From the NCBI GenBank assembly GCA_007693945.1, contig RECP01000063.1:1-64000 (forward strand): a stretch of DNA of 64,000 bases, given 5' to 3'. The stretch's first letter is position 1. Each line of letters starts with the position of its first letter. This DNA comes from Spirochaetaceae bacterium (GTDB taxonomy: Bacteria; Spirochaetota; Spirochaetia; DSM-27196; PWMO01). A model generated the notes under the pieces. It was not told the origin of the DNA. It saw only the letters and a list, made by a program, of their open reading frames with translations, and made no database searches. Both the position numbers and the translations under genes were made by a program. Shown here in pieces: positions 41,895 to 63,256 of the stretch.

Positions 41895-41932
41895 ACACTG
41901 TGATGGAGAGTCATTCATAAGGAGGATCCAAC

Positions 41933-43163: not shown

Positions 43164-44216
43164 ATGCGCACATCGATGAAAGTCACCGTGTTGGTGGTGG
43201 TTGTGCTGTCCGTTCTGGCAGCACAAATGGCCTTTGGGAGAGGGCAGACGGAGCCTGTGGATGTCGAGGTGGTAGACGAAGTACTGATTGCGGGAATCCC
43301 GACCTACCTGGACAGGTTCGATTCGTTTCTGCTCTACTCTCGTGGTATGGAGGACAGGCTGGAAGCATTGGGCGTACCGTATCGTTACGTTCTCAGGGCG
43401 CCTTCCGGAGGCTTCTCGGATCATACCGGGCAGCGTGCAATTTTTGAGGATATGCTTGTAATCGGGTCCAATATCATCATGACGCTCCCCACGAGCATTG
43501 AAGTACAGCATGCCGCATTCGAGATGATCGTGGACGAGTACGAGACCCCGCTGGTCATCACCGATTATCTGGAGTTTGCCGAAGGCGCACGACCCTTGGG
43601 CAATGAGGATCTGGTCCGTTTTGCTTCATACCGCCACAGCGACATGGGGAAAGCGGTTGCGGACTACGTGGCTCAGAACTATCCTGCCGGAACCAGGATG
43701 GCCATGATTCACGGAATCCCGGGTGTTATCACTTCCGAGCGCGCGGCGGAGGAACTGCATCTTGCCAACGGCATGGAGATCATCTATCGTCACTTCGCCA
43801 ACTTCGACCGTGAGATGGCCTACCGTGCCACACAGGACCTGCTGGTTGCGCGACCGGATGTCGAGGTGATCCTCGGCATGAACAGCACCATGGCTATCGG
43901 AGTGGTACGCGCGGTAGAGGAAGCCGACATGCTCGATCAGGTGGACGTCATAGGATTCGGTGGCGTTGTCGAAGAGCTTGCTTCGGTTGCCCAGGGCAAG
44001 ATGAAGGCCACCGCCGGCAGAAATCATTTTATCATCGGTGAGTATATGGCCGACCTGGTAGTGGCATATCGCGAAGGCCGCTGGGAAGAGACGGAGAAGA
44101 CGTTCGCCGCACCAATCACAATCTACGACTCCAAGGAATCGATTGTGCGGGATCTCGATGAACGCTACTATCCAATGCTCGGAGACGAGGTGCTTGGGCT
44201 TCTTGGATTAAAGTAG
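43164..44216 (+). CDS. Sugar ABC transporter substrate-binding protein (RbsB-like)
   Basis: Signal peptide, MAMIHGIPGVITSERAAEEL, VEVILGMNSTMAIGVVRAVEEA; operon context. Confidence 0.88.
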   Translation: MRTSMKVTVLVVVVLSVLAAQMAFGRGQTEPVDVEVVDEVLIAGIPTYLDRFDSFLLYSRGMEDRLEALGVPYRYVLRAPSGGFSDHTGQRAIFEDMLVIGSNIIMTLPTSIEVQHAAFEMIVDEYETPLVITDYLEFAEGARPLGNEDLVRFASYRHSDMGKAVADYVAQNYPAGTRMAMIHGIPGVITSERAAEELHLANGMEIIYRHFANFDREMAYRATQDLLVARPDVEVILGMNSTMAIGVVRAVEEADMLDQVDVIGFGGVVEELASVAQGKMKATAGRNHFIIGEYMADLVVAYREGRWEETEKTFAAPITIYDSKESIVRDLDERYYPMLGDEVLGLLGLK

Positions 44217-44282
44217 AACCCCGACGTCTGCAGCGGCGAGCGCAGAAGAGCTCATATGAATACTGCACAAGGCAAGCGCTGG

Positions 44283-44308
44283 TACCGGCCACCTTTGAGT
44301 GGCCGGTA
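44283..44308 (+). terminator. Hairpin between SBP and FGGY kinase genes (attenuator-like)
   Basis: TACCGGCCAC-CTTTGA-GTGGCCGGTA followed by TTGT. Confidence 0.6.
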
Positions 44309-44355
44309 TTGTCCGGGGGCGGCCCCGATCATGCCCAATATGGAGGCGACACGCA

Positions 44356-45885
44356 ATGGGAATGGACAAGAAGTATGTCATGGCCGTCGACCAGGGAACA
44401 ACCGGCACGCGGGTGATACTGTTCACCCGAGACGGGCGGCCGGCAGCCAGCAGCTACGAGGAGGTCGATCAGATCTATCCGCACCCCGGGTGGGTGGAAC
44501 ACGATCCGCAACAGTATTACGAGGGGACGCGGCGCCTGATGCAAAACGCTCTGCAGGAGTGCGCCGCTTCGCTTGACGACGTTGCCGCTATCGGGATCAC
44601 ATGCCAACGAGAAACTACCGTCCTGTGGGATCGCGAGACAGGTCAGCCGCTCTGGAATGCGATAGTCTGGATGTGCCGCCGAAGCGCCGGCATCTGCGAA
44701 GAGCTGAAGGCGGCCGGCTATGAGCAGGCAGTACGAGAGAAGACCGGTCTGTTCATAGATCCCTACTTTTCGGGATCCAAGATCAAATGGATTCTGGACA
44801 ACGTTCCCGATGCCCGCCGCAGGGCCGAGGCAGGCACAGTCTGCATGGGTACCGTGGACAGCTGGCTCATGTGGAAGCTGAGCGGCGGCCGCTACCACGT
44901 CACCGACTTCTCAAATGCATCACGAACCATGCTGCTCAATATTCATTCGCTCGAGTGGGACAGCGAACTGCTGGATGCGTTGACAATCCCTCACAACATC
45001 TTGCCGCAGCTGATGCCATCCAGCGGCGTGATGGCCTACACTGACGAGGCTATATGCGGCACCAGAGTGCCCTTTGCCGGTGACGCCGGTGACCAGCACG
45101 CCGCCACCTTTGGTCAGGCGTGCTTTGAGCCGGGAATGGTGAAGAATACGTACGGGACGGGACTGGCGCTGATGATGAACATCGGGGCCGAACCAAAACT
45201 CTCAACGCACGGGCTGACCACCAACCTGGGCTGGCACGTGGACGGACAGGTTGATTACGCGCTGGAGGGTGTCATTTTCACGGGTGGGGCCTCAACCCAG
45301 TGGCTTCGTGACGGCATAAAGATTATCCACGATGTTGCGGAATCCGAGTCACTGGCAACGCAGGTCCCGGATACCGGCGGCGTCTACCTGGTGCCGGCCT
45401 TCACGGGACTGTGCGCACCGTATTGGGACATGTACGCGAGAGGTGTGATTGTAGGAATCACGCGCGGTACCTCGCAACAGCATATTGCCAGAGCAGCCCT
45501 GGAGGCTATCGCCTATCAGACTCGCGATATCGTTGAGTCAATGGAGGCGGACTCCGGCAGGAAGATGACATCGCTGCGCGTGGATGGCGGGGCAACGAAG
45601 AACAACTTCCTGATGCAATTCCAGGCTGACATACTCGATACTGTCATAGAGCGGCCGGCGGTTACCGAAATGGCTGCGCTGGGGGCGGCCTATCTGGCGG
45701 GACTGGGTGTTGGGTTCTGGCGTGATAAGGAGGAGCTTTCGCGTAACTGGCGCCTTGAGCGGGTCTTTGAGCCGCGCATGAATCAGGAAACCAGAGAGCA
45801 GTTGTACGCCGGCTGGAAGGAAGCCGTCAGCCGATCTCTTGGCTGGGCGAAGAAGGTCGCTTTGGCGGGCAATCCAGATGCCTGA
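44356..45885 (+). CDS. FGGY family carbohydrate kinase, glycerol kinase-like
   Basis: YVMAVDQGTTGTRVILFTRDGRPAASS, GITCQRETTVLWDRETGQPLWNAIVW. Confidence 0.92.
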   Translation: MGMDKKYVMAVDQGTTGTRVILFTRDGRPAASSYEEVDQIYPHPGWVEHDPQQYYEGTRRLMQNALQECAASLDDVAAIGITCQRETTVLWDRETGQPLWNAIVWMCRRSAGICEELKAAGYEQAVREKTGLFIDPYFSGSKIKWILDNVPDARRRAEAGTVCMGTVDSWLMWKLSGGRYHVTDFSNASRTMLLNIHSLEWDSELLDALTIPHNILPQLMPSSGVMAYTDEAICGTRVPFAGDAGDQHAATFGQACFEPGMVKNTYGTGLALMMNIGAEPKLSTHGLTTNLGWHVDGQVDYALEGVIFTGGASTQWLRDGIKIIHDVAESESLATQVPDTGGVYLVPAFTGLCAPYWDMYARGVIVGITRGTSQQHIARAALEAIAYQTRDIVESMEADSGRKMTSLRVDGGATKNNFLMQFQADILDTVIERPAVTEMAALGAAYLAGLGVGFWRDKEELSRNWRLERVFEPRMNQETREQLYAGWKEAVSRSLGWAKKVALAGNPDA

Positions 45886-45901
45886 GAGGGGCCGCAACGC
45901 G

Positions 45902-46978
45902 ATGCGGGCGGGGGCAATCCTGAACATACCGAATCAGATCGGCATACTGGAGCTAGATAGACCGACTGCGGGCCCGGACGATGTCATCGTGAAACCGCAC
46001 CGCGTCGGCCTCTGCATGACAAACGTCAAAATGGCGCGCCACGGCTATTACGCCATCGACCAGCGCGGGCTGCCGTTCATGGAGGGACACGAGGTCTCGG
46101 GTGAGGTGGTGGAAGTTGGTGCGCAGGTCAAAGAGCTGGCACCCGGTGATCGCGTGGCGGTCTACATCTATGTGCCGTGTCACAACTGCTACTACTGTCA
46201 ACGTGGCCACCCAACCATGTGCGACAATTTCATTCTGGGTGGGATATATCCGGGGGGATGGGCGGAGTACGTCGTGATCTCGCGACATCAGCAGTTCGCG
46301 CGTCGTCTGCACCGTATCGCGGCTGCCGTTTCGTACGACGACGCCGCGCTGCTTGAACCGTTATCATGCGTGGTTCACTCGCTTGAACGCAGCACCGTAG
46401 GCGCCGGGGACAGAGTGGTTGTACTGGGCGCCGGTTTCATGGGGCTGTTGCACACTACCGTACTCGGCCTCTATCCGCTGGCTTTGAGCATCAGCGTTGA
46501 TCTGAGTGCGTTCCGTCTTGGCCGTGCCGCGGCGTGCGGTGCGCACGAGACAGTTCTCAACAGTGATCCCGAAGCGGTAGTTGAACGCGTGCAGGAACTG
46601 ACCGGCGGACGCGGCGCGGACGTTGTCTTTGAAGTGACCGGCAACGTCCAGGCGTACGAGCTCGCACCGCGGCTGCTGGCAAAAGGAGGGACGGCACTGT
46701 TCTTCGGCGGAGTCCCTTCGTCTGAACCAGTCCGTGTTGACCCGCGCGCACTCCATTACAACATGTATCGCCTGGTGGGATGCCAGAGCGCAGAGGATCA
46801 TCACGTCAGCACAGCAATGGCTTTGATAAACAGCGGCCGTGTGAAACCGTCCGCATTCATCACCCAGCGCTTCCCTATGGAACGGTTGAGCGACGCTATC
46901 CTCTTTCCGCAGCAGCCGGACAATCGCGAGCAGATGATCAAAGTGATGCTGCACGGGTTTGACTGTGAGTTGCCCTGA
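45902..46978 (+). CDS. Zinc-dependent medium-chain dehydrogenase
   Basis: GHEVSGEVVEVGAQVKELAPGDRV, CHNCYYCQRGHPTMC structural zinc motif. Confidence 0.92.
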   Translation: MRAGAILNIPNQIGILELDRPTAGPDDVIVKPHRVGLCMTNVKMARHGYYAIDQRGLPFMEGHEVSGEVVEVGAQVKELAPGDRVAVYIYVPCHNCYYCQRGHPTMCDNFILGGIYPGGWAEYVVISRHQQFARRLHRIAAAVSYDDAALLEPLSCVVHSLERSTVGAGDRVVVLGAGFMGLLHTTVLGLYPLALSISVDLSAFRLGRAAACGAHETVLNSDPEAVVERVQELTGGRGADVVFEVTGNVQAYELAPRLLAKGGTALFFGGVPSSEPVRVDPRALHYNMYRLVGCQSAEDHHVSTAMALINSGRVKPSAFITQRFPMERLSDAILFPQQPDNREQMIKVMLHGFDCELP

Positions 46979-49472: not shown

Positions 49473-50243
49473 TCAGGTCAGCGAGTATTCGATTCTCACC
49501 GTTATCGCTACCGGCCCTCCGGCGCGATGACTGATGGGAAATATCCGTTCCAGCGAATCCAGCGCTGCGCGATCGAGCATAGAATAGCCGGAGGAGCCTT
49601 CCACTTCGCGGCTGCCGAGACTGCCATCCGGCTCGACCTGGATCCGGACGATCACGATCCCCTGAACGTTGCGTCGTCGCGCCGCCATCGGATAGACCAG
49701 ATTGTCCTGCAACCGCCGGTAGATATCCTCCACCAGCGCATCGACGGCCGAACCTTCGGTGAGCGGCCCATCGGGGTCGCCTGCGCCGGCCATCGAGTCT
49801 AGCGAATGGTCCGGCAACCCGGTGCCGGCGCTTGAGCTCGATTCGGAACTCTCTGCCTCAGATCGCGCAAGACGCTCACTGTCGCCGGTGCCGGACTGAG
49901 CCCTTGCGGGCTTACCGCTGGTCGCATCAGCAGCTGCCGTCTGTGGTGGCGCGGCTTTGGCGACAGTTTCTCTTTCTGCTGACGACTGCTCCGCAGGCGC
50001 TTGCTCGATATGCAGGACGTTCTCCCCGCTGCGCGATGCGCGAGGCCCGTCACCGGAACCGGATCCAGCGACGGGCGGCTCCATGACCACAGTCAGGCGA
50101 TGGTCACCGCCCTGCCCGGCATGCTCACTGAAAGGCACGAACTCGACGACGAGCAACAGACACAGGTGCAGCAGCACGGCGGCTATCACTGCCTGCCGCA
50201 TGCGCCTGCGCTCAACTGTATCTCGCCGTCTCGCCCGTGCCAT
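49473..50243 (-). CDS. Energy transducer TonB
   Basis: N-terminal TM segment, acidic/Ser-rich linker, C-terminal YPMAARRRNVQGIVIVRIQVEPDGSLGSREVEGSSGYSMLDRAALDSLE. Confidence 0.88.
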   Translation of the reverse strand: MARARRRDTVERRRMRQAVIAAVLLHLCLLLVVEFVPFSEHAGQGGDHRLTVVMEPPVAGSGSGDGPRASRSGENVLHIEQAPAEQSSAERETVAKAAPPQTAAADATSGKPARAQSGTGDSERLARSEAESSESSSSAGTGLPDHSLDSMAGAGDPDGPLTEGSAVDALVEDIYRRLQDNLVYPMAARRRNVQGIVIVRIQVEPDGSLGSREVEGSSGYSMLDRAALDSLERIFPISHRAGGPVAITVRIEYSLT

Positions 50244-50259
50244 GCGCGGCTCCTATTCT

Positions 50260-52257
50260 CTAGTAGCTGTACGCCGCCGAGATCCGGAAACTGCGGCCGG
50301 GGGCGGGATAATATGATCCGAAGAAGACCAAGGGTGCGTAACGAACGTCGAAAAGATTCTTTACCTCGGCACTGAGCGACAGATCGCCCGGCAGACGCTC
50401 GGGTCGGAAGCGCACAAACACGTCGGTCAGGAAGTAGGAATCGATCTTGTCTGACTCGTTCGCGGTATCGCCGCCCTGGTACGCTTGGCTGCGGCAGGTA
50501 ATCGCCGGTCCGAACTCGAGACCGCCAAGTGGGCGCACGCCCAGTTCCGCATCGATGGAATGATTGGGGACGAGAGGCACCTGATTACCCTTGTCATCGC
50601 CCGCGATGAAGACGGCGTTGACGTAGCTGTAACCCGCGCTCAGGCGCAGCTGGTCGATGGGTTCACTTGACAGCTGCACGTCACCGCCGATGCGGCGAGT
50701 TTGATCAAAGTTTTCGTTTGCGCCTTCGAACGTCACGGGATCAAAAACGTACGCTATTTCGTCACGCATCTGCAGCCAGTAGAAGCTGAGATCCGCCCGA
50801 AGTGCGCGTGACAGATAGAGCCCACCTCCGACCTCGACAGTGAAACCACGCTCAGGTTCAAGTGCATCTTCGAACTGATTGGCGAAGTTGACATCAGCCT
50901 GCTCATCCAGAAACGGATAACGAAACAGCGTTCCACCCGATACAAAAAGCTTGGAGACATCACTCGGCCGATACACTACGCCAAGATCAAAGACCACGGC
51001 CTGGTGCGTCTTTGACTCGTCAATTTCGGGGTCGTCTTTCTCGGCAGACAACACACTCCGGTCATAGCGAACGGCCGCCGACGCGTCCAACTGCTCGGTC
51101 AGATAGACCGTGTTTGAGAGCGCGGCACCGAACGTCCACTGTCCCAGCCTGAAATCATTGATCTTATTGTCACGATCAGCGGAATCGTAGCCTCGACCGT
51201 CCTGCCAGGCCCAGCTTCCGTCGATACCGAAGCGAGAACGAACCGGAACGGCACCGGCATCCCAGTCCACAATCACGGCCGGCGACCCCGTCAGTGTGTG
51301 AAGGCTTGCGTCCGTGTAACTGCCGAACGTTACGTTGTCGATTTCGACAAGCTTCAACGAGTAACCCAATACCAGGTCAAGGTGCGCACGATCGCCGATC
51401 CCCCAATCAAGGCCGGCATCGACGGCAAACTGATCCTCGCTCGCCTCATCTTCCTCATTTACTGCCTGCCCCGGATCATCCTCGAACTCTTCCTTCGTCA
51501 ACCCGCCCGGCAACTCGTAGGATACATTGGCGTAGCGGCCGCCGAGACTCAAGCTGAGCCGGTCGCTGACATCGAGGTCGCTGCCGAGGGAGAAATTGAG
51601 CGCCTGGTAAGCGCTGCGGTCGCGGTGGCCGTCGGTCGCAAAGTGTTCGGCGGAGGCGCGCAGGCGGGCGCGCCGGCCGGCAGTGGCGAGTCCGAGACGT
51701 TGCTGGTTGGTCATGAAGCTGCCGAACGACCCGAACGCCGTTACCTCCAGCGGCCGCTCAGGCGTCCTGGTGATGATGTTGATAACGCCGGCCACAGCGT
51801 AGTTGCCGTAGAGCGCGCTCTCGCTGCCGCGCACGACCTCGATGCGCTCGATCGCATCGACAGGTACAGACAGCCAGTTGATGCCCGACATATCGGGGTT
51901 GTTCTGGCGGCGGCCGTCGACCAGCACCAGCACGCGGCCATAAGAGCCTTCGCCGAAGCCGCGCATGTCGACCTGCGCCTGGGCCTCGTTGGAGAACGAG
52001 CGAAACGAGACGCCCGGCTGGCGCTCCAGCAGCTCCACCACGTTGGTGGCGCCGGAGCGGCGAATGTCTTCGGCAGTGATGATGGACACGTGCGCGGCGG
52101 TAGACAGTATGTCGGTGAGCACGCGGTCGGCGGTGATCACAACGTCGATAACCGGCACAGGCTGCGACCTGTCGTCCCGTGGCGAATCCGCCGCCGCGGA
52201 CAGCGGCCCAAAGGCCAGTGGGGCTGCCAGCAGCGATACAAGAAATCGGAATTTCAT
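50260..52257 (-). CDS. TonB-dependent receptor, probable cobalamin/corrinoid receptor (BtuB-like)
   Basis: Plug domain VVITADRVLTDILSTAAHVSIITAEDIRRSGATNVVELLERQPGVSFR, DGRRQNNPDMSG, terminal aromatic SY; cobalamin riboswitch upstream. Confidence 0.9.
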   Translation of the reverse strand: MKFRFLVSLLAAPLAFGPLSAAADSPRDDRSQPVPVIDVVITADRVLTDILSTAAHVSIITAEDIRRSGATNVVELLERQPGVSFRSFSNEAQAQVDMRGFGEGSYGRVLVLVDGRRQNNPDMSGINWLSVPVDAIERIEVVRGSESALYGNYAVAGVINIITRTPERPLEVTAFGSFGSFMTNQQRLGLATAGRRARLRASAEHFATDGHRDRSAYQALNFSLGSDLDVSDRLSLSLGGRYANVSYELPGGLTKEEFEDDPGQAVNEEDEASEDQFAVDAGLDWGIGDRAHLDLVLGYSLKLVEIDNVTFGSYTDASLHTLTGSPAVIVDWDAGAVPVRSRFGIDGSWAWQDGRGYDSADRDNKINDFRLGQWTFGAALSNTVYLTEQLDASAAVRYDRSVLSAEKDDPEIDESKTHQAVVFDLGVVYRPSDVSKLFVSGGTLFRYPFLDEQADVNFANQFEDALEPERGFTVEVGGGLYLSRALRADLSFYWLQMRDEIAYVFDPVTFEGANENFDQTRRIGGDVQLSSEPIDQLRLSAGYSYVNAVFIAGDDKGNQVPLVPNHSIDAELGVRPLGGLEFGPAITCRSQAYQGGDTANESDKIDSYFLTDVFVRFRPERLPGDLSLSAEVKNLFDVRYAPLVFFGSYYPAPGRSFRISAAYSY

Positions 52258-52428
52258 GAAACGGTACTCCTTCTTTGACCCACCGCCTGCGGCGATGAGC
52301 GTGCGGCTACACAGAAGGAATGGTAAGAGCGGATCGGTACACCAGGCTCGTGGGTACGCCACGGCTACGTTACGCATTCCCTGTACGTGAGAGAACGAAG
52401 CACGGTGTTGACTGCTTCGTTTTGAGAA

Positions 52429-52600
52429 AGGAATCGTCTTCTGGCTAACGGATATTCAGCGTCTCGCCTTCCCATCCCATGAGGACAGTGGCAATGAGGC
52501 ACCTCGAATCCGCACACAGCGGCACGCCCGCACCTGATTCACACAGGTTTCCGTTCTTCCTTTCCGCTTGTTGGTTCGCGGTCTGAGCACCTCCTGATGA
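52429..52600 (-). ncRNA. Cobalamin riboswitch
   Basis: Minus strand reads GGAAACCTGTGTGAATCAGGTGCGGGCGTGCCGCTGT...ATTGCCACTGTC...GGGATGGGAAGGCGAGACGCTGAA...AGCCAGAAGACG; B12 box GCCACTG at 52486-52492. Confidence 0.85.
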
Positions 52601-52710
52601 CAGTTGGATTCGTTGCGTAAGACTATACCGGGTTCAGGCGGCTGTCAACTGCCGGTTTACGCCGGCTTGCGCCGCGGCCGGCGACGCCGGACAGCCTGAA
52701 GCCCTGACAT

Positions 52711-53736
52711 TCATAGCGGCCGGGCGCGGTTCTCGCGGGCAAAGCGGCGCATAGCATCGATATTCTCTGCCGGCGTGTCACGCGGCACTTCACAGCCGGC
52801 GTTTACCGCGTAGCAGCTGCCCCCGGCCTGGTCGTAGCACTCCTGAAACGCCCGGTAGACCGATTCGGGTGTTCCGTCGCGCAAGGCGCGGACGGGGTCA
52901 ATGTTGCCGGACAGAAGTTGCCGTGGGCCGGTCTCCCGCCGGGCGGCAGTCAGCGCCACCATTGAATCCAGATCGAGTATGTCAGCGCCAACTTCCCTGA
53001 GCATCGCCAGCAATGGTGTGGTATTGCCGCAGATGTGCAAGCGCACCAGCGCGCCCATCTCGTGCAGAGTCTGCACGTATCTCTTCTGGTACTCCCAGAT
53101 GAAGGCACGGTACAACTTCGGGCCGGCCAGCGAAGCTGCCGCATCGCCAACTCCAATGATGTCGGCTCCGGCTGCAATCTGCGCGCGCGCAAAGGTCATC
53201 TCCATTTCGAATACAAAGTCGAACAGATCGCGCACAAAGCCTTCGTCATCGTAGAGATCCATCATGAAGGTGTTGATGCCGCGCAGGTCACAACTCTCGG
53301 CAATTGGGCCTTCGACCCAACCTTCAACCAGTTTCTGATCACCGACCTCGGTCTTCAACCGTGAGATGACCTCCAGACGTTTGGACATGCGCGGACCGCT
53401 GCCCGGATCGGGCACGTTGAGCGATCGCAGCCGTGACTTGTCCTGCAGCAGCGCATTACTTTCGTCGACAGCCGGCGGCTGGTTTTCGTAGTAGATGATG
53501 GCAGCTCCGAGGTCCGCCGCCTCGGTGGTCGGGCACGAAATCGCCGAAACGTGATCGACATCGTACCGCTCGGCGAACGCGATCTGGCCCCGAGCGTGTG
53601 CCGCGGCATCGAGTACGTACTGCCTGTAGCAAACGCCTGCCTGATCAGCGGCTATCATCATCGAGATCGGAATGAGCGGCAACGAGTCGGTCTGTTCGCC
53701 CCGCACAGTAAGCGTAATTCGTTCTCTGCCGGTCAT
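52711..53736 (-). CDS. Uroporphyrinogen decarboxylase-family methyltransferase (MtaA/MtbA-like)
   Basis: LVRLHICGNTTPLLAMLREVGADILDLDSMV zinc H-x-C and downstream Cys (VNAGCEVPRDTPAENI). Confidence 0.88.
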   Translation of the reverse strand: MTGRERITLTVRGEQTDSLPLIPISMMIAADQAGVCYRQYVLDAAAHARGQIAFAERYDVDHVSAISCPTTEAADLGAAIIYYENQPPAVDESNALLQDKSRLRSLNVPDPGSGPRMSKRLEVISRLKTEVGDQKLVEGWVEGPIAESCDLRGINTFMMDLYDDEGFVRDLFDFVFEMEMTFARAQIAAGADIIGVGDAAASLAGPKLYRAFIWEYQKRYVQTLHEMGALVRLHICGNTTPLLAMLREVGADILDLDSMVALTAARRETGPRQLLSGNIDPVRALRDGTPESVYRAFQECYDQAGGSCYAVNAGCEVPRDTPAENIDAMRRFARENRARPL

Positions 53737-53781
53737 TTGGTACCTCCTGCGCGGTATGGCGCCACCATGCGCACGTTTGTG

Positions 53782-53793
53782 GCAGAATTCTGC
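53782..53793. promoter_or_regulatory. 12-bp palindrome GCAGAATTCTGC in divergent methyltransferase/corrinoid-protein intergenic region
   Basis: Perfect palindrome in a short divergent intergenic region. Confidence 0.35.
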
Positions 53794-53889
53794 AATACAG
53801 CGCAAAATTGTCTTATACAGATGGGGTTCATCGGTTTATACTTTATCTGCTTTTGATGAGCGGTGACAACGACTCGGAGGAGGAAAACA

Positions 53890-54534
53890 ATGAGTCTACT
53901 GAGTGAGCTGTCGGAGCAACTGCAGCGGGGCAAAGCAAACGAAGTCAAGGATCTGGTGCAGAAGGCGCTTGACGAAGGCATCGAGCCACGTGCGGTCCTT
54001 GAGGAAGGCCTGATGGACGGAATGGGCATCATTGGCGAAAAGTTCAAGAACAACGAGTGCTACGTGCCGGAAGTGCTGATCGCCGCGCGGGCGATGAACG
54101 CCGGCATAACGGTACTGAAACCGCACCTGGTGACAAGTGGTGTGAAGGCTCAAGGCACTGTGGTCCTCGGAACAGTCAAGGGTGATCTTCACGACATCGG
54201 CAAGAATCTGGTGCGGATGATGATGGAGGGCAAGGGGCTTGAAGTCATTGATATCGGCGTCGATGTTCCGGCCGAGAAGTTCGTAACCACGGCAATCGAA
54301 CACAACGCCGACATCATCGCGTGCTCTGCGCTGTTGACTACTACCATGACGGAAATGCGCAACATCGTGGACAGGATTGTTGAAGACGGCGTTCGCGACC
54401 GCTTCAAGATCATGGTGGGTGGGGCGCCGGTCACCGACAGCTTCTGCAAAACCGTTGGTGCAGACCTCTACGCCCCGGATGCCTCAAGCGCAGCCGACGT
54501 CGCCGTTGAGTACTGCAAATCAAAGGCCAGCTGA
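53890..54534 (+). CDS. Corrinoid protein (MtbC/MttC-like methyltransferase corrinoid subunit)
   Basis: VLGTVKGDLHDIGKNLVRMMMEGKGLEVIDIGVDVPAEKFV (DxHxxG B12-binding motif). Confidence 0.95.
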   Translation: MSLLSELSEQLQRGKANEVKDLVQKALDEGIEPRAVLEEGLMDGMGIIGEKFKNNECYVPEVLIAARAMNAGITVLKPHLVTSGVKAQGTVVLGTVKGDLHDIGKNLVRMMMEGKGLEVIDIGVDVPAEKFVTTAIEHNADIIACSALLTTTMTEMRNIVDRIVEDGVRDRFKIMVGGAPVTDSFCKTVGADLYAPDASSAADVAVEYCKSKAS

Positions 54535-54538
54535 AAAC

Positions 54539-54569
54539 CACGGGAGGCACCGCGCGGGTGCCTCCCGTG
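54539..54569 (+). terminator. Strong hairpin downstream of the corrinoid protein gene
   Basis: CACGGGAGGCACC-GCGCG-GGTGCCTCCCGTG, perfect 13-bp stem; T-run begins about 8 nt later. Confidence 0.7.
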
Positions 54570-54649
54570 CCGATGACTTTTCGCGTTTCAGACGTCGTCG
54601 CGCTCCACCGATTACACAACGGTCTTTCTTGAGGTACTCTTGGTCAGAC

Positions 54650-55942
54650 ATGCAGATCAAGGCAGAAGGCACCCTGTTCGATTTCGACAAGGCAGTCGCT
54701 TGCGTCGATGACTACAGTCGCGCCACGGGCGTGAGTTGCTCGATTCTCGACCGCAACGGAAACTCGCTCTTCCGCGCCGGTGACGGCCCCGATCCGTGTG
54801 TCGGCTGCTGTAAGCTTCAGTCGCTGGCGGACAGGCCACGCGGTTGCCGTGACACCCACCTTTACAGCATCTATCACGCCGAGCGCTTCGGGGGTCGCTA
54901 CATCTTCTTCTGCCCCATATCTCTGATCCACTGGACCTCGCCGATTGTCGTCGGAGGATCTACCGTTGGTGCCCTGCTCGGCGGACCGGTGCTGGCGGTT
55001 GATGAGAAGGACTTTTTTGAGCAGGAATTCTTCCGCATGTTTCCTGAGGTGCTGCCCGACCCCGACGAGCTGAGAGCCCGTTTCAGCAACGTGCCGTACG
55101 TTGATCCGGCGCGCATCAAGAGCCTTTCCGAGCTGCTCTACGCGCTGGGCTGTCTGCTTTCCGAAGGCGATCAGCCGGCCTTTTCGGCAGAGTACGAGAA
55201 GCTGGTGGTGGATTCGCGCATATCCGAGTACATCCACTATATCAAGCAGCTCGACCAGAGCAACGACGAGACTCTGGCCTACCCGGTGGAAAAGGAATCT
55301 CTGCTGCTCGAGTGCATCCGCAACGGCAATCAAGCCGAGGCACAGAAGATACTCAACGAGATTCTGGGGTATGTGTTTTTTACGTCGGGCCGTGATCTCG
55401 ATGTGATCAAGGCGCGCGTACTCGAGCTCGCCGTGCTGCTCTCGCGCGCAGCCCTGCAGGGAGGCGCCGACAACGAGCAGATCTTCGGACTCAACTTCCG
55501 CTACCTGCAGCAGCTATACACGATGAAAGACGTGGATGATATCGCCTACGGGCTCTCGCAGATCATGCGCCGCTTCACCGACTGCGTGTTCATTCTCAAG
55601 GACGTAAAACACGTTGATGTAATCCAGCGCAGCATCGCCTACATCCGGAAACACTACAACGAGCGTATTCCGCTGGAGGAGATCGCGCGGCACGTCTCGC
55701 TCAGCCCGGCCTATTTCAGTCGGCTGTTCAAGGAGGAGATGAAGACAACATTCATCGAGTTTCTGAATCGCTACCGAATCACCAAGGCCAAGTCGCTCCT
55801 GGTGAACTCGCGCACACCGATAATAGACGTTGCCGGCATGGTTGGATTCGATGACCAGAGCTACTTTACCAAGGTATTCAAGAAGCTCTCCGGCGTCAGT
55901 CCGGGGCGGTTCCGCGAGTCCGGCGGACAACCGAAGGGGTGA
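54650..55942 (+). CDS. AraC family regulator with N-terminal PocR sensory domain
   Basis: DYSRATGVSCSILDRNGNSL..., CVGCCKLQSLADRPRGCRDTHLYSIYHAERFGGRYIFFCPISLIHW; C-terminal HTH_18 LEEIARHVSLSPAYFSRLFKEEMKTTFIEFLNRYRI. Confidence 0.92.
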   Translation: MQIKAEGTLFDFDKAVACVDDYSRATGVSCSILDRNGNSLFRAGDGPDPCVGCCKLQSLADRPRGCRDTHLYSIYHAERFGGRYIFFCPISLIHWTSPIVVGGSTVGALLGGPVLAVDEKDFFEQEFFRMFPEVLPDPDELRARFSNVPYVDPARIKSLSELLYALGCLLSEGDQPAFSAEYEKLVVDSRISEYIHYIKQLDQSNDETLAYPVEKESLLLECIRNGNQAEAQKILNEILGYVFFTSGRDLDVIKARVLELAVLLSRAALQGGADNEQIFGLNFRYLQQLYTMKDVDDIAYGLSQIMRRFTDCVFILKDVKHVDVIQRSIAYIRKHYNERIPLEEIARHVSLSPAYFSRLFKEEMKTTFIEFLNRYRITKAKSLLVNSRTPIIDVAGMVGFDDQSYFTKVFKKLSGVSPGRFRESGGQPKG

Positions 55943-55944
55943 AG

Positions 55945-56688
55945 ATGCGACTGAAGATCATCGCCTGCAAGGTACTGTTCCGCGAGTTGAGTCTGCTGGC
56001 GGCCCGATCCGGGAATACTATCGATACCGTATTCCTTGATCAACGCTATCACGATCAGCCGGAAGGGCTGCGGGCGAAGCTGCAGCAAAAGATCATCGAA
56101 ATCGAGAATGAGGTAGCGCCGCCGGCCCATAGCCCGTACGCCAGATCGCATGACTACGAGGCAATTCTGCTGGGCTACGCGCTGTGCAGTAATGCGATCG
56201 TCGGTCTCCGGTCCAGCAAGTACCGTTTGGTAGTACCTCGCGCGCACGACTGTATCTCGCTGTTTCTGGGAAGCCGCAGACGCTACAAGCAATACTTCGA
56301 CAAGCATCCGGGCACGTACTGGTACACGCGCGGATGGATGGAAAATGTCCTGATGCCGGGCAAGGAGCGCTACCAGGAGAGCTATCAGCACTACAGTCAG
56401 CAGTACGGTGAAGATAACGCCGATTACCTGATGAAGATGGAGCAGGACTGGCTTTCGAAGTACAACCGCTGTACGTTCATCGAATGGCCCGACATACCCG
56501 CTGAGCAACACAAACAGCAGGCCAGGAGCGCATCGCGCTACCTTGACTGGGCGTACGACGAGCAACTGGGCAGCTCCGAATTACTGCGCGATTTTGTGGA
56601 AGGAAACTGGGACAACCGTTTCCTGGTCATCGAGCCGGGCAAGAGCATAGCACCGTCATTCGACGAGGGAGTCATTACCGAGTCATGA
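55945..56688 (+). CDS. DUF1638 domain-containing protein
   Basis: MRLKIIACKVLFRELSLLAARSGNTIDTVFLDQ, ILLGYALCSNAIVGLRSSKYRLVVPRAHDCISLFLGSRRRY. Confidence 0.88.
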   Translation: MRLKIIACKVLFRELSLLAARSGNTIDTVFLDQRYHDQPEGLRAKLQQKIIEIENEVAPPAHSPYARSHDYEAILLGYALCSNAIVGLRSSKYRLVVPRAHDCISLFLGSRRRYKQYFDKHPGTYWYTRGWMENVLMPGKERYQESYQHYSQQYGEDNADYLMKMEQDWLSKYNRCTFIEWPDIPAEQHKQQARSASRYLDWAYDEQLGSSELLRDFVEGNWDNRFLVIEPGKSIAPSFDEGVITES

Positions 56689-58571
56689 AGTCTGACCGGA
56701 CCATCGGTGTCATACAGGACGGCCGACAACACCAGGTCGACATCGGCGGCGCCGCGGATATCCTCGCAGTGCTGCAGCACAGCCGGTTTACGATCGCCGC
56801 ACCGTGCGGTGGTTCCGGCACGTGCGGTAAGTGCCTGGTCCGGGTGGCCGCCGGCGATCCCGGACAGCCGAGCACGATGGAGCAGCGGCTGCTCTCCTCC
56901 GGGCGCCTGTCGGCGGGGATGCGCTTTGCCTGCCGCCTGGTTCCGGCGGACGGGATGCTGATCGAGATTCCCCGCTGGCACGCCGAGACCCTCAACAAGG
57001 CTTCACTGATCAGCGTTCCGCTGCAGAATGACCCTCCGCTGATCAAGCGTGCTCTTCGTCTCGCACCGCCTTCAATCGACGACCAGACCCCCGATCTGGA
57101 GCGGGTTCTCAGAACAAGCGGTTGTGCGAAGCAACGCTTGTCGGTCCACGCGCTGCGGACACTCGCGCAGGACCTGCGTCGGGGCGGCTTTGCGGTTACC
57201 GCGCTGATAGAAAACAACGCAGACGATTGCGACTGCCTGGTGGCGATTGAGTGCGGTGACACAGCCGCCACCCTGTGGGGCGCCGCGGTGGATATCGGCA
57301 CTACCACGGTTGCGGCCTACCTGGTGAATCTGGTCAGCGCTCGTGCCGTCGATGTCTTTTCCGAGATCAACAGACAGGCCGAGTTCGGCGCCGACGTTGT
57401 GACACGCATCAGCTATTCTCAGAAGCACGGCGTAACCGCCGTTCGGCAGGTAATTGTCGCTCAGATCAACGCCATGCTTGCGAAACTGGCGCAGCGCAAC
57501 GGTCTCGCGGTCAGCGACATCTACCTGGCCGCGGTGGCCGGCAACACGACAATGCTGCACTTTTTCACCGGCCTGGACCCCGCGGCAATCGGCGTGTCGC
57601 CGTTCATTCCGGTTGCGACGCGTGCTCTATCGCTCGCGGCCGCAGATCTCGACGTCGCAATCAATCCGCACGGTGTGGTGGCGACACTGCCCGGGATCTC
57701 CGGATACGTGGGTGCCGACGTGGTAGCCGCAATTGTTGCGTCGCGCATGCGGCAGCGCACTGAGATCAGTCTACTGATCGATATTGGAACCAACGGCGAA
57801 ATCGTGCTCGGAAACGTCGACTGGCTGGCTGCCTGCTCGACCGCGGCGGGCCCGGCGTTCGAGGGTGCCCAGATCCGCTTTGGTGTCGGCGGAGTCGACG
57901 GAGCGGTAAACTCATTCTCGTTCGACCCGGAAGGTTCCCGGGCTGACGCGCAGAACGGCGGCCAGGTGTCACTCACAACCATCAACTCCACACCGGTCAG
58001 CGGTATCTGCGGCTCGGGCATGCTGGATATTGCAGCGGTCCTGGTGCAGACCGGCGCCGTCGATAAGACCGGGCGGCTGCTGCCGCGCGATCGATTGCCG
58101 CGCAGCGTGCCTCCCGCGATCCGTGAGCGGTGTACCGAGTTTGAGTCAAGCCCCGCGTTCCTGGTAGCGGACTCGGAACTGACCCGTGACGGCGAACCTG
58201 TCTACCTGACCGAGCACGACGTCCGTGAGCTGCAGCTTGCCAAAGCCGCGATAGCCGCCGGAATCGATACGCTGCTGACAGACGCGGGAGTCGAGGCCGG
58301 CGAAGTGGCCGCAGTCTACCTGGCCGGCGGGTTCGGCAGTTATATGAACGCCGCGAGCGCACTGGCGGTCGGCCTCATCCCGCACCGGCTTGGTGGCCGC
58401 ATCGAGGTGCTCGGTAACGCAGCGGGAATCGGCACTGTAATGAGTATCACTTCGCGCACGGTATCGAGGCAGTGCCGCGGCATCGCGCGGAACGTGCGCT
58501 ACATAGAGCTGTCCAGTTCGGCGAGTTTTCAGAACGCCTACATAGAGCACATGGGGTTCGGGGAGTTGTAG
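56685..58571 (+). CDS. ASKHA/DUF4445 domain ferredoxin, reductive activator of corrinoid enzymes (RACE/RamA-like)
   Basis: N-terminal 2Fe-2S PCGGSGTCGKCLVRV; VDIGTTTVAAYLVNL; ISGYVGADVVAAIVAS; LLIDIGTNGEIVLG. Confidence 0.93.
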   Translation: MKSDRTIGVIQDGRQHQVDIGGAADILAVLQHSRFTIAAPCGGSGTCGKCLVRVAAGDPGQPSTMEQRLLSSGRLSAGMRFACRLVPADGMLIEIPRWHAETLNKASLISVPLQNDPPLIKRALRLAPPSIDDQTPDLERVLRTSGCAKQRLSVHALRTLAQDLRRGGFAVTALIENNADDCDCLVAIECGDTAATLWGAAVDIGTTTVAAYLVNLVSARAVDVFSEINRQAEFGADVVTRISYSQKHGVTAVRQVIVAQINAMLAKLAQRNGLAVSDIYLAAVAGNTTMLHFFTGLDPAAIGVSPFIPVATRALSLAAADLDVAINPHGVVATLPGISGYVGADVVAAIVASRMRQRTEISLLIDIGTNGEIVLGNVDWLAACSTAAGPAFEGAQIRFGVGGVDGAVNSFSFDPEGSRADAQNGGQVSLTTINSTPVSGICGSGMLDIAAVLVQTGAVDKTGRLLPRDRLPRSVPPAIRERCTEFESSPAFLVADSELTRDGEPVYLTEHDVRELQLAKAAIAAGIDTLLTDAGVEAGEVAAVYLAGGFGSYMNAASALAVGLIPHRLGGRIEVLGNAAGIGTVMSITSRTVSRQCRGIARNVRYIELSSSASFQNAYIEHMGFGEL

Positions 58572-58644
58572 GCAATACGTGACACCGACGCACGCGTTGG
58601 CAACGACGGCGTTGACCATCGTGCGTGTTCCCGCCTGTGCCTGC

Positions 58645-58822
58645 CTCGAGACAGCAATTCTGGCCGTACGGCGCCGCACGCGCCGACGTTGTCCTTACCC
58701 CCAAGCGAGCGGCAGCCGTCGCCATATGGTGCACGGGGGTGCTCTCGAGGCAGGCGCGCAGGAGCTCCATGCCAACCGACCCCGTACCCCGGTACGCCAA
58801 AATGAGAATTGCTGGCCTCGAG
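58645..58822. repeat. Imperfect inverted repeat CTCGAG-A-CAGCAATTCT ... AGAATTGCTG-GC-CTCGAG
   Basis: Left arm 58645-58661, right arm 58805-58822, 143 bp apart; a further CTCTCGAGGC copy at 58742-58751. Confidence 0.5.
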
Positions 58823-58882
58823 AGTGTCCGTCTTGCGCTTATTGGACAATAGTGCAACAATCGCGTGCAGCAAGGAGCGCGC

Positions 58883-59890
58883 ATGCAGCAACACGAATTC
58901 CCGCGCACCACGGTGGTTGGCAGCTACCCGCTTCCCGAATGGCTCAAGGTCATGCCGAGTCGTCCCAATCTGCGCGACGCGATCATGACGGTGATCGCCA
59001 CCCAGGAACTGGCGGGTATCGACGTGGTAACCGACGGCGAGCTGAGCCGCTTCGACGTCAACCACCCCGAAACCAACGGCATGATAGAGAGCTTCATCGC
59101 GCCGATGGCTGGTGTCTATCGCGACTTCACCCGCGAGGAGATGGAGGGGTTCAGCCGGCAGCAGGGGATGGGGTTCCGCACACAGCCGGCCGGCGTCGTC
59201 AGGGACAGGATCGGTGAGGGCCGGCTCAACCTGGTTGAGCAGTACCGCTTTGCTCGACCACTGGCAAGGAACGAGCTCAAGTGCACGGTTACGGCTCCCT
59301 ACATGCTGTCCAAGACGCTCTACGACACCTACTACCGTGATCTTCCCGCGTTGAACTGGGATATCTCGGAGGCCCTCAAGGCGCAGGTCAGCCGGATCGA
59401 TGCACCCGTGGTCCAGCTGGACGAGGCAAACCTGCCCGGGCATCCCGAAGACACCGCCTGGGCTCACGAGTCGATCAACAACCTCCTCGCGGCAATCAAG
59501 GGCCGCCGCGGCCTGCACCTCTGCTTCGGCAACTACGGCGGCCAGTCGATCCAGCGCGGTTTCTGGCGCGACATGATCCCGTTCCTCAACAAGCTGCAGC
59601 TTGACCACCTGGTGCTGGAGTTTGCCCGCCGTGGATATGACGAGCTTGAAGCGTTTCGCGAGTTGCGGCCCGACATCGCGCTCGGTATCGGCGTCATCGA
59701 TATCAAGGACAACGAGGTGGAGACGCCGGAAACGGTGGCACGCCGGATTGAGAAGGCCGTGGACGTCCTGGGTGCCGAGCGCATCAAGTGGGTGCACCCG
59801 GACTGCGGTTTCTGGATGCTGTTGCGTTCCGTGGCGGACCGCAAGATGGAGGCCCTGGTACAGGGGCGCAACGCGTTTCTCGGGCGGTGA
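58883..59890 (+). CDS. MetE C-terminal-like (core methionine synthase/methylcobamide methyltransferase) protein
   Basis: TTVVGSYPLPEWLK, DVVTDGELSRFDVNHP, LHLCFGNYGG (H-x-C) and WVHPDCGFWMLL zinc-ligand motifs. Confidence 0.87.
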   Translation: MQQHEFPRTTVVGSYPLPEWLKVMPSRPNLRDAIMTVIATQELAGIDVVTDGELSRFDVNHPETNGMIESFIAPMAGVYRDFTREEMEGFSRQQGMGFRTQPAGVVRDRIGEGRLNLVEQYRFARPLARNELKCTVTAPYMLSKTLYDTYYRDLPALNWDISEALKAQVSRIDAPVVQLDEANLPGHPEDTAWAHESINNLLAAIKGRRGLHLCFGNYGGQSIQRGFWRDMIPFLNKLQLDHLVLEFARRGYDELEAFRELRPDIALGIGVIDIKDNEVETPETVARRIEKAVDVLGAERIKWVHPDCGFWMLLRSVADRKMEALVQGRNAFLGR

Positions 59891-59935
59891 GAGCTCGCGT
59901 CGAAGTCGAGCAGAGCGCTCCGGGGTTACCGCCTT

Positions 59936-60979
59936 TCAGCGATCCTGATCCATGCACATCCGCCGGAAATGCAGAACGTCGGCCGGGCTGGTGCTGTAGG
60001 AGACACAGCCGCAGCCCCACACGAAGCGGGCCATCCCGCGCGACTTCTCGGCGAGCACCGACAGGGCACGCTGCACGCCGGCCCACTCCGCTCGCTCGAT
60101 CATCTTGGGATCGGCGCAGCCCCTTACGACTATATCGCTGTCGTGCTGCTCCAGCGCCTTCCGGATGTGCGTGAAGTCCGCGTTGTAGTCCGCGGCAATC
60201 AGCGAGGCACCGCTCTGTATGAAGAACCGGATCAGTTCAGAGACGTTGCCGCCCATAATGATTGCCGGCGGAGGCGTAGCGAAATCGGCGCGCAGCGCCT
60301 CAATGATTGTGCGCTCGTAGGGCACAACGAACTGCTCGAAGATGCCCGGGTCAATCAGGGGCAACGTTGCCCACGATTCGTAAATATTGATACCGACGCC
60401 GCAACGCGACAGATTGGAAGCGTGACGCAGAGAGAACTCGGACGTCCTTCTCATCAGCGCGTGGACCTGTTGCGGCGCCGTCAGCATGTCCATCAACAGG
60501 TTCTCGAAACCTCGCAATTCCACAGCCTGCGAGAACGGTCCTCCCATACAGGCGTAGACCCAGACATCGTTGCCGATCGCGGTCATCACCCTGTCACACG
60601 CGTCCGCGACAAGGCTCAGACGGTTACCGGAATCTGCCGAACCGGACACGTCGATCGCGTCCGGATCGAGCGAATCCTGACCGGCCAGCGGATGCGAGAC
60701 AACGCCGGGCACGGCGGTGCTGGTGTCCTCATACTTCACGCTGCATCCAAGCGCCTCGGCTTCAACGTTATAGACATCGATACCCACCGTCACCAGATCG
60801 TGGCTGTAGGTTTCGTAAGCCGCGACGGCCGCCTCCGCCATCAGGGCTGCATCGCGGGCCACCACCGAAGGCGTGCGCTCGAGCAGTGCAGCGCCGTGCT
60901 CGTAGATCGACGGTACAAAGGGGGTACGATCCGGCGTCCGGCCGCCGAACACCGCCTGCATTCGCTCTATCGCCCGCAT
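59936..60979 (-). CDS. Uroporphyrinogen decarboxylase-like protein lacking canonical H-x-C
   Basis: UROD-like fold motifs (MTAIGNDVWVYACMGGPFSQAVELRGFENLLMDM); PPAIIMGGNVSELIRFFIQSGASLIAADYNAD in place of HxCGN. Confidence 0.78.
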   Translation of the reverse strand: MRAIERMQAVFGGRTPDRTPFVPSIYEHGAALLERTPSVVARDAALMAEAAVAAYETYSHDLVTVGIDVYNVEAEALGCSVKYEDTSTAVPGVVSHPLAGQDSLDPDAIDVSGSADSGNRLSLVADACDRVMTAIGNDVWVYACMGGPFSQAVELRGFENLLMDMLTAPQQVHALMRRTSEFSLRHASNLSRCGVGINIYESWATLPLIDPGIFEQFVVPYERTIIEALRADFATPPPAIIMGGNVSELIRFFIQSGASLIAADYNADFTHIRKALEQHDSDIVVRGCADPKMIERAEWAGVQRALSVLAEKSRGMARFVWGCGCVSYSTSPADVLHFRRMCMDQDR

Positions 60980-61001: not shown

Positions 61002-62069
61002 TCACCCGCGCCACTCGGCCAGATGCCGGTTCACAAAATCATCATCAGTCAGATGCGGGTACGCACGGCAGACACGGGTAATCTCTTCGCTCTGCCCGGG
61101 GCTCATACGCTCCTCGCGGTCCAGGCACGTAACGCCGCCAAAGATACCCTGACGACGCAGCACCTCATGGATTCCCGGAAGACAGCCGGCGTAGCCGTTG
61201 GCGGCATCAAAAATCGCCCCGTTCATGTCGGTGATCTCGGCTGCCAGCGTCAGCATCCCGGCTGGAACTCCGGCCTCGGAGTCCGCGAGCTCACGGCACT
61301 GCCGGTGAATCTCGACCGCTCGTTTTGTCCACACGCCCCAGTGACCCAACAGCCCACCGCATATGCGCATCGTCCGTGTCCGTTGAGTGCCAACGACGCG
61401 AAACGGCGTCAGCAAGTCCGCCACGATTGTGTCGTCGTTGCCGGTATAGAGCGCAACTTCATCGGCCCGTCCTGAATCCGCGATCCCACGTAGCACCGTT
61501 AGAGTGGCGTAACGATCAAACGGGGCGATCTTGACGCCCCAGACATCGTCCAGGGCCGCGAAGCGGCGCCAGAAATCGTACGACAGCATCATTCCGCCAA
61601 CCGCAGTCTGCAGGTAGAACCCGATGACCGCTATCTCCCGCGACACCGCGCGAATATGCTCCACGAGCAGGTCAACCGAAGCATTACGCAGCGCGGCCAG
61701 ACTCACCAGAGCGGCGTGGTAGCCGCGTGACCGCGCCAGACGAGCCTCGGACAGCGCCTGTTCACGTTCACCGCAGATGCCGGCAATCATGACCATCGGT
61801 CGGCCGCGACGGTCCGACCACTCGCCGACCGTTTCGTACGCAAACTCGAGTATCCGCTGATAGAAACCGGGCGTATCGCGAATTGCAAACTGGGTTGAAT
61901 GCACGCCGACGGCGATCCCGCCCGCTCCGGCGTCAACATAGTAGCGCAGTACGGCTCGCTGGCTCTGCTGATCAAGCCGTCGCTGCGGTGTCAGCGCCAG
62001 CGGCATCGCCGGGATCACCAGTCCGTTGTGAAAGCGTTTGCGGGCTTCGGGTACACTAAGTATGCTCAC
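61002..62069 (-). CDS. Dihydrodipicolinate synthase/N-acetylneuraminate lyase family (DapA-like)
   Basis: GLVIPAMPLALTPQRRLDQQSQRAVLRYYVDAGAGGIAVGVHSTQF, VWGVKIAPFDRY catalytic Lys region; GTG start. Confidence 0.8.
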   Translation of the reverse strand: MSILSVPEARKRFHNGLVIPAMPLALTPQRRLDQQSQRAVLRYYVDAGAGGIAVGVHSTQFAIRDTPGFYQRILEFAYETVGEWSDRRGRPMVMIAGICGEREQALSEARLARSRGYHAALVSLAALRNASVDLLVEHIRAVSREIAVIGFYLQTAVGGMMLSYDFWRRFAALDDVWGVKIAPFDRYATLTVLRGIADSGRADEVALYTGNDDTIVADLLTPFRVVGTQRTRTMRICGGLLGHWGVWTKRAVEIHRQCRELADSEAGVPAGMLTLAAEITDMNGAIFDAANGYAGCLPGIHEVLRRQGIFGGVTCLDREERMSPGQSEEITRVCRAYPHLTDDDFVNRHLAEWRG

Positions 62070-62107
62070 GCTCCCCCCTGAGCGCCGCGCCGGCAACGGC
62101 CGACGCG

Positions 62108-63142
62108 TCAGTAGCGCCCATCGCGTACTTCCCAGTGAGTCGGTTTGCCCAGACCGCGCCCGCCGGAGGCGACCCATCCCGCGGTCCAGCGAATCACGTG
62201 CTCGAGCGGAACCTGCGGATAGCCAAAAAGGCCAGCCGCCCGGGACGCGTTACCCAGCAGCGCATCGGATGCGCTCTCGTTGCTGAGCACGGGGGTCTTG
62301 CCGAGCAGCTCACCGAACCGTTGGGCCAGATATCGAACCGAGACGGTCTCCGGACCGGTGATGTTGAGTGCCGAGGCCGGCACTTCGGCACACGCAAACG
62401 CCCGCAAAGAGAGGTCGACAGCATCGCCCTGCCAGATCAGGTTCACAAAACCCATCGAGAGATCAACCGGACGCTCGTTGTAGACGTTTTCGGCAATATC
62501 CCTGATCACGCCGTAGCGCAGGTCGTTGGCGTAGTACAGCCGAATCAGACAGACCGGAGTACCGAAGCGTATCGATGCCCATTGAAACAGACGTTCACGC
62601 GCCACCGCCGCGTTGCCGTACTCACCGCGTGGCTCGAGAGGATCGTGTTCGCGCGACCCGCCGGAGGCCACCGGAACCAGATCGTATACGGCGCCGGTCG
62701 AGTAAGCAACCAACGGTATACCGGCATAGCGGCGACATACAAAAAGCGGCGGGACGGCGTTCATGGCCCAGGTCTCAGCCTCTGCACCACTTGTACCAAA
62801 CTTTCGTCCCACCAGGTAGACGACCCGATCGGCATCCGGCAGAGCTGCTACCTGGTCGGGATCCAGAACGTCAGCCGTGACGGTCTCAACCGCTCTCTGC
62901 TCGAGGAATTGGCGTGCATGCTCATCCGAAAAGCGCGAAACACCGATGACCCGCGCCGAACTGCCGGCCCGCTCAAGCGCACGGCGCAACCGAACCGCCA
63001 GCGTGCCTCCCATCTTGCCGCCGACACCGAGCACGACCACGTTCCCTGAAAGACCGGCGACGCTCGCAACCAGCGCATCCGAGGGCACCGTAAGCACGTC
63101 GTCGAGTTGTTGCTCGTCGCTGATCATCTCAGGCAGTTGCAT
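62108..63142 (-). CDS. NAD-dependent epimerase/dehydratase family protein
   Basis: NVVVLGVGGKMGGTLAVRLRRAL Rossmann motif, STGAVYDLVPVASGGSREHDPLEPRGEYGNAAVARERL. Confidence 0.85.
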   Translation of the reverse strand: MQLPEMISDEQQLDDVLTVPSDALVASVAGLSGNVVVLGVGGKMGGTLAVRLRRALERAGSSARVIGVSRFSDEHARQFLEQRAVETVTADVLDPDQVAALPDADRVVYLVGRKFGTSGAEAETWAMNAVPPLFVCRRYAGIPLVAYSTGAVYDLVPVASGGSREHDPLEPRGEYGNAAVARERLFQWASIRFGTPVCLIRLYYANDLRYGVIRDIAENVYNERPVDLSMGFVNLIWQGDAVDLSLRAFACAEVPASALNITGPETVSVRYLAQRFGELLGKTPVLSNESASDALLGNASRAAGLFGYPQVPLEHVIRWTAGWVASGGRGLGKPTHWEVRDGRY

Positions 63143-63256
63143 GCGGCCTACTCTATGCATCTGCTGCCGGGCAGTCAAGCAGCGGGCTATTGTACCGGTG
63201 GACGTAGTGGATTACACTGCCGCTGAACCATCCGGCGCGCAGCTCGGAGACCAGAC

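Follow-up and report, generated by a model that had tools for sequence, protein, structure and literature searches.

A conserved, predicted UROD-type corrinoid methyltransferase core next to vitamin B12 uptake genes in a Spirochaetaceae genome

Gene content and organization of the locus

We analyzed a stretch of 64,000 nucleotides (hereafter the window) from a Spirochaetaceae bacterium, in which genes for vitamin B12 uptake adjoin genes for a corrinoid protein, an activase and methyltransferases of the UROD superfamily. The window is contig C60 of a draft genome (G000) that totals 3.73 Mb and is 86% complete. In G003, a genome of the same genus, the CorC match agrees in coordinates and identity with a public Spirochaetaceae record (PWMO01000371.1, L060), which points to a relation with spirochaetes. 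An earlier, sequence-only reading had proposed that seven genes at 52711-60979 form a single novel corrinoid methyl-transfer system with an unknown substrate. The seven genes and their family names were borne out by open reading frame (ORF) and Pfam/family-model scans, and so was the link to B12 uptake, with btuB-like and tonB genes and a cobalamin riboswitch at 52436-52552 (table 1). The genes belong, however, to two units rather than to one system. Unit A (window 49473-58571) consists of tonB, btuB with its riboswitch and UROD1, divergent from corC, pocR, DUF1638 and RACE; unit B comprises MetE-core, UROD2, a DHDPS-like gene and an epimerase-like gene.

Table 1. Features of units A and B. 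The starts of UROD1 (53736) and CorC (53890) were refined, those of PocR (54650) and DUF1638 (55945) were taken from translations.
Feature	Position in window	Strand	Basis or remark
tonB-like gene (TonB_C)	49473..50243	-	Pfam PF03544; same position after btuB in G002 (locus L158)
BtuB-like TonB-dependent receptor, B12 uptake	50260..52377	-	Pfam Plug and beta-barrel; behind cobalamin riboswitch
Cobalamin riboswitch, btuB leader	52436..52552	-	Rfam RF00174, 64.7 bits
UROD1, MtaA-like UROD-superfamily methyltransferase, candidate substrate:corrinoid methyltransferase	52711..53736	-	PF01208, 193 bits
Divergent control region, UROD1/corC	53737..53889		Promoter-like matches on either strand
CorC, MtbC/MtgC-type corrinoid carrier	53890..54534	+	PF02607 and PF02310; DxHxxG at residue 99 (DLHDIG)
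PocR-sensor AraC-family regulator	54650..55942	+	PF10114 and PF12833
DUF1638 protein, probable helper of corrinoid reactivation	55945..56688	+	PF07796, 133 bits
RACE/RACo-type ATP-dependent reductive activase of CorC	56685..58571	+	Fer2 and RACo linker, middle and C-terminal domains
MetE-core methyltransferase, start of unit B	58865..59890	+	PF01717, 80 bits
UROD2, UROD superfamily, without His-x-Cys zinc motif, unit B	59936..60979	-	PF01208, 143 bits
DHDPS/NAL-like aldolase-type protein, unit B	61002..62177	-	Weak match to N-acetylneuraminate lyase 8u8w, E=9e-4
NAD-dependent epimerase/dehydratase family protein, unit B	62108..63178	-	PF01370; kept in G002

The division is seen most clearly in the congeneric genome G002, where unit A lies in identical order on a single contig, with more UROD genes past tonB, while all four genes of unit B lie on a different contig and the gene 3' of RACE is an unrelated one. 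UROD2 is also near MetE-core in G012, both away from CorC, and part of the order of unit A is kept in G004. The arrangements in G002 and G012 indicate that the earlier 8.3-kb set joined two neighboring units, with MetE-core and UROD2 forming a cassette of their own within the genus. The conserved gene association that had been predicted was found for the UROD1-CorC-PocR-DUF1638-RACE block, but not for MetE-core and UROD2. In fact, linkage of MetE-core to corC was seen in this window only, and G002 and the other relatives rule it out as a fixed member of unit A.

Within unit A, the control region between UROD1 and corC is conserved in part in G002 and G004, and the BtuB-like receptor scores below the cut-off of TIGR01779. 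RACE combines a 2Fe-2S domain, with the cysteine-rich motif CGGSGTCGKC, and the RACo ASKHA domains that define activases of the RACE/RamA type. In the case of the DHDPS-like protein of unit B, a Pfam scan gave no match; its gene adjoins UROD2 in G002 too.

UROD1 as candidate methyltransferase

No MttB or MtaB gene lies at 52711-60979, as the sequence-only reading had stated, but the absence is not the anomaly that it had been taken for. UROD-superfamily methyltransferase-I enzymes include MtvB, OdmB, VdmB, MtoB, CdmB and CmuA (PMC13222342), and since UROD proteins are a standard family of corrinoid methyltransferases (OdmB, MtvB, CdmB, MecE), the premise that the substrate methyltransferase was missing is wrong. 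A UROD protein is the likely substrate:corrinoid methyltransferase, as had also been suggested, with UROD1 as the candidate. The best match of UROD1 in the PDB is the methylcobalamin:coenzyme M methyltransferase 4ay7, and an alignment with that protein shows all three ligands of the MtaA zinc site, His-x-Cys...Cys. A His-Cys-Cys site marks S-methyltransferases of the UROD superfamily, whereas O-demethylases have carboxylates or non-ligands in place of the cysteines (PMC10418091). Judged by this motif, UROD1 would act by preference on a sulfur (or selenium) compound that carries a methyl group, or would use a thiol as acceptor.

The same motif and structural match would also suit an enzyme on the acceptor side, like MtaA/MtbA, that transfers methyl from CorC to a small thiol, sulfide or selenide, with other UROD proteins or MttB as donors. 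Type 1 mlp clusters, moreover, have been proposed to handle methyl-S/Se compounds (PMC10418091). The direction of transfer cannot be read from sequence, however, and zinc-thiolate UROD proteins can demethylate thioethers or selenides too; we regard an acceptor role as possible but doubtful.

Orthologues of UROD1 that are 83% identical lie beside CorC in G002 and G004. In the tree, UROD1 groups with its own orthologues, the nearest clade being, at weak support, that of a paralogue encoded on contig C130, and MtaA is unplaced. The C130 paralogue scores 223 bits against the MtaA/CmuA family model TIGR01463 (cut-off 235.4 bits). UROD2 is weakly MtaA-like and has MGGN where HICGN is expected, the HxC pair being absent in all three orthologues (window, G002 and G012).

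Carriers, methyltransferases and acceptors in the genome

The draft genome contains 19 URO-D matches, with several metal-site variants, on contigs C2, C4, C6, C22, C23, C60, C94, C104, C108, C110, C130 and C137. The His-Cys-Cys site is found in three of these proteins (UROD1 and those of C130 and C108), and most others have H-x-D or other variants. Several of the URO-D genes adjoin sugar kinases, transporters or Gfo/Idh-type genes. The corrinoid-protein domain PF02607, on the other hand, gave two matches only, CorC and MetH, which makes CorC the sole stand-alone corrinoid protein found in the genome. A single MttB-family gene lies on contig C70, unlinked to corC, and MttB was for this reason rejected as the CorC partner; MtaB was not detected in the genome. 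With 19 URO-D matches, one MttB and one stand-alone corrinoid protein, we infer that several UROD proteins share the single CorC, which would probably serve several UROD demethylases. About 5 kb from the MttB gene (L055:612-11315) are apparent genes for a B12 ABC transporter and a cobalamin adenosyltransferase, as read by eye.

Three PF00809 matches were found on C138, C4 and C84, and none on C60. The C84 protein scores 177 bits against the model of methyl-tetrahydrofolate (THF):corrinoid/iron-sulfur protein methyltransferases, below the cut-off of 259. It is encoded in a C1 module (L054:722-12166) together with a fused PF02574 homocysteine methyltransferase-MTHFR, a second PF02574 protein, a hydantoinase_A-like protein and EtfA-like and MTHFR-like proteins.

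Genes associated with CorC in other genomes

In Spirochaetota and Clostridia, relatives of CorC repeatedly have genes for UROD proteins, RACE and PocR as neighbors. In 50 of 94 CorC loci a UROD gene was present in the available flank, the nearest one lying no more than 2 kb away in 43 loci and no more than 500 bp away in 31; an even spread of the 19 URO-D matches over 3.73 Mb would give ~0.1 per 20 kb. By similarity, 100 CorC loci contained RACE in 48, UROD in 46, DUF1638 in 8 and MttB in none, and PocR/AraC in 56, a count that takes in matches to the AraC DNA-binding part alone. As the loci were picked by CorC similarity and many end at contig edges, these counts are rough. The metal sites of the UROD partners were His-Cys-Cys in 27, HCH in 12, FCC in 12 and others in fewer cases. 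An MtaB-like gene occurs at a few CorC loci (a cluster of five; one MtaB beside a CorC confirmed by Pfam).

Co-occurrence was assessed in ~395 genomes of the class, with p values uncorrected for phylogeny. CorC was found in 51 of 78 genomes with DUF1638, against a background of 75/394 (p=5e-26), and UROD1 orthologues of at least 49% identity were confined to CorC genomes (8/8, p=4e-4).

In a Clostridiales genome (L072:5875-12722) CorC and two UROD genes have an alpha-L-fucosidase gene a few kb upstream of them, a possible hint of methylated sugars. Genes for a GntR regulator, a class II aldolase and a HAD phosphatase directly follow the CorC block in G012 (L160:14694-17086), and the same three kinds of gene lie beside the MtaA/CmuA-like UROD gene on C130 of the window's own genome (L041:4935-8734).

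DUF1638 and its probable role in reactivation of the carrier

The predicted fold of DUF1638 (mean predicted local distance difference test score 86) had no PDB match at E<=0.001, and its assignment to a known fold was rejected on this ground. A single ORF of ~920-960 aa in other spirochaetes joins DUF1638 to a hydantoinase_A/oxoprolinase-type protein (L203:196-3012 and L206:1602-4481; also L204 and L205); the fusion was checked by Pfam in two proteins and judged by open-frame length alone in ~20 spirochaete genomes. Our literature search found no paper naming both DUF1638 and hydantoinase_A. The ASKHA superfamily includes both hydantoinase_A and the C-terminal domain of RACo, and the fusion therefore suggests a role shared with the activase. 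DUF1638 is a probable helper of corrinoid reactivation.

In Phaeobacter, mutant fitness indicates that B12-dependent methionine synthesis needs DUF1638 and a RamA-like protein (PMC5764234). Unit A might likewise serve methionine synthesis or B12 housekeeping, as in the split MetH of Phaeobacter, with UROD1 being incidental. We consider this very improbable: the genome has a full-length MetH (L051, 1237 aa), CorC loci are enriched in UROD genes, and a PocR-type regulator suggests control by a substrate.

MetE-core and a possible homocysteine route

MetE-core keeps the zinc ligands H, C, E and C and the homocysteine residues S, E and D, and these seven residues are conserved in 15 of the 16 proteins compared. 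It resembles the core methionine synthases MesA-D (PMC7857596) in having only the catalytic half of MetE with all zinc and homocysteine residues, but differs from them in a Glu at the DGE position, which is Gln in MesA/MesC and variable in MesB. MesX (PF08908) had no match in the genome, and control genomes gave none either. Among the 16 other genomes of the class sample with MetE-core, 11 have a close CorC (background 75/394, p=1e-5) and 13 have DUF1638; within the order, CorC accompanies MetE-core in 9/9 genomes.

These data bear on the possibility of a single pathway made up of all seven genes, with UROD1 and UROD2 demethylating a substrate onto CorC and MetE-core moving the methyl group from CorC to homocysteine, which would give methionine without folate. 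Besides the conserved residues and the co-occurrence, the position of MetE-core, on the strand of RACE and starting 294 bp downstream of it, is in keeping with this view, as is a PF02574 homocysteine methyltransferase gene directly 3' of RACE in G043. Nevertheless, unit B is on a separate contig in G002, where another gene follows RACE, MetE-core adjoins corC in no relative examined, five MetE-core genomes have no close CorC, UROD2 has no HxC zinc ligands, and two PF02574 proteins as well as MetH are encoded elsewhere in the genome. A single pathway is, in our view, unlikely. Homocysteine as the methyl acceptor, an idea of the sequence-only reading, survives as a weaker hypothesis, since the residues are intact and co-occurrence with CorC is above chance; against it are the linkage, which is found here only, and the presence of MetH.

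Comparison with known systems

Unit A is genuine and conserved. As a UROD-superfamily protein is encoded together with a B12-binding carrier and RACE, it is a predicted UROD-type corrinoid methyltransferase core, and cores of this kind are known and widespread. The proposal of a corrinoid methyl-transfer system with an unknown substrate was thus sound, but the system is not novel in kind, which has been published as O-demethylases and as mec/cdm and mlp gene clusters.

It shares with type 1 mlp clusters (PMC10418091, Kountz and Balskus) an MtaA-like UROD protein with the His-Cys-Cys site that their definition asks for, a corrinoid protein, RACE, an origin in anaerobes, and no THF methyltransferase gene within 20 kb. 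Unit A has, however, one Mlp-like gene, and UROD1 is on the minus strand and corC to RACE on the plus strand where the published rule is a single direction; for these two reasons it is not a type 1 cluster by the published rules. PocR-AraC and DUF1638, neither mentioned in PMC10418091, are additional. The UROD-type O-demethylases OdmB, VdmB, MtvB and MtoB and the chloromethane system CdmBCA (PMC13222342) have the same three components, namely a UROD methyltransferase I, a separate corrinoid protein and an ATP-dependent activator. UROD1 differs in its thiol-type zinc site, CdmB being without zinc, and methyltransferase II is encoded outside the cluster here. The mec cassette for dichloromethane (PMC9768040) is alike in that its corrinoid cluster encodes a regulator with a PocR domain besides proteins of the MtaA/CmuA family and other UROD proteins, but PocR is part of a histidine kinase there and of an AraC-type protein here, and we found no sign of a halogenated substrate.

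The glycine betaine system MtgBCDE with RamA and DUF1638 (PMC12478193) has a comparable corrinoid carrier and RamA-type activator and shares DUF1638 with unit A, and its THF and homocysteine acceptor enzymes are also encoded elsewhere; by analogy with this Ruegeria system, the PF00809 and PF02574 genes of C84 may provide both routes outside the window. The methyltransferase there is MtgB/MttB, whereas here a UROD protein is encoded beside the carrier. Unit A is not an MtgB system: no MttB gene is near corC, and CorC scores 230.9 bits against the MtgC model NF047996, under the cut-off of 370. Lastly, UROD1 shares fold family and the three zinc ligands with the methylcobamide:CoM methyltransferases MtaA/MtbA (4ay7), but is far under the cut-offs of these families, and the genome does not belong to a methanogen.

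Proposed mechanism

From families, motifs, conserved gene order and the genome inventory, all read from sequence, we infer reactions, partners, direction and regulation as follows. BtuB and TonB would import B12 under control of the cobalamin riboswitch, for loading on CorC, and RACE with DUF1638 would spend ATP to bring inactive Co(II)-CorC back to Co(I). UROD1 would move methyl from its own substrate onto CorC, and further UROD paralogues and the unlinked MttB protein would probably methylate the same CorC, each from its own substrate. The methyl group would then pass mainly to THF through the unlinked PF00809 methyltransferase of C84, with transfer to homocysteine as a possibility, and PocR-AraC would induce the set on a small-molecule signal. 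We give a probability of roughly two-thirds (0.68) to the view that positions 49473-58571 of the window encode a UROD-type corrinoid methyltransferase core working in this manner.

Several points weigh against this proposal. UROD1 lies beside CorC within the genus only, orthologues of 49-58% identity being elsewhere in other surroundings, and it scores under the TIGR01463 cut-off (148.7 vs 235.4 bits). Neighborhoods of its orthologues, read by eye from ORF starts, share no gene set, and no substrate signal was found; genes for sugar ABC transporters, for glutamine synthetase and for a protein like cobyrinate synthase occur there, each singly or in a few. The THF acceptor gene is unlinked to unit A, the genome is an incomplete draft, and UROD1 could be the thiol acceptor enzyme discussed above instead of a demethylase.

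A broader and quite improbable extension would make the one carrier a hub for up to ~18 UROD demethylases, a possible HemE not counted. These would act on a number of different methylated compounds, methylated sugars perhaps among them, and MetE-core would move some of the methyl straight from the carrier to homocysteine. If true, anaerobic spirochaetes would have a way to make methionine from methylated nutrients that bypasses folate. Outside haem synthesis, most genes of the UROD superfamily are without an assigned substrate, and a genome with one carrier, an adjoining activase and ~18 UROD candidates offers a tractable setting in which to assign many of them together. Moreover, DUF1638, which has no known function, is tied tightly to CorC by the co-occurrence statistics, and to an ATPase of the activase superfamily by gene fusion.

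Other genes in the window

Elsewhere in the window there is a sugar utilization cluster (37143-46978) with genes for a nucleotidyltransferase, a GHMP kinase, an SDR protein, a ribose-type ABC transporter, an FGGY kinase and an alcohol dehydrogenase. A B12-binding radical SAM protein with DUF4070 is encoded at 30476-32059, and a proton-translocating pyrophosphatase at 35045-37075.

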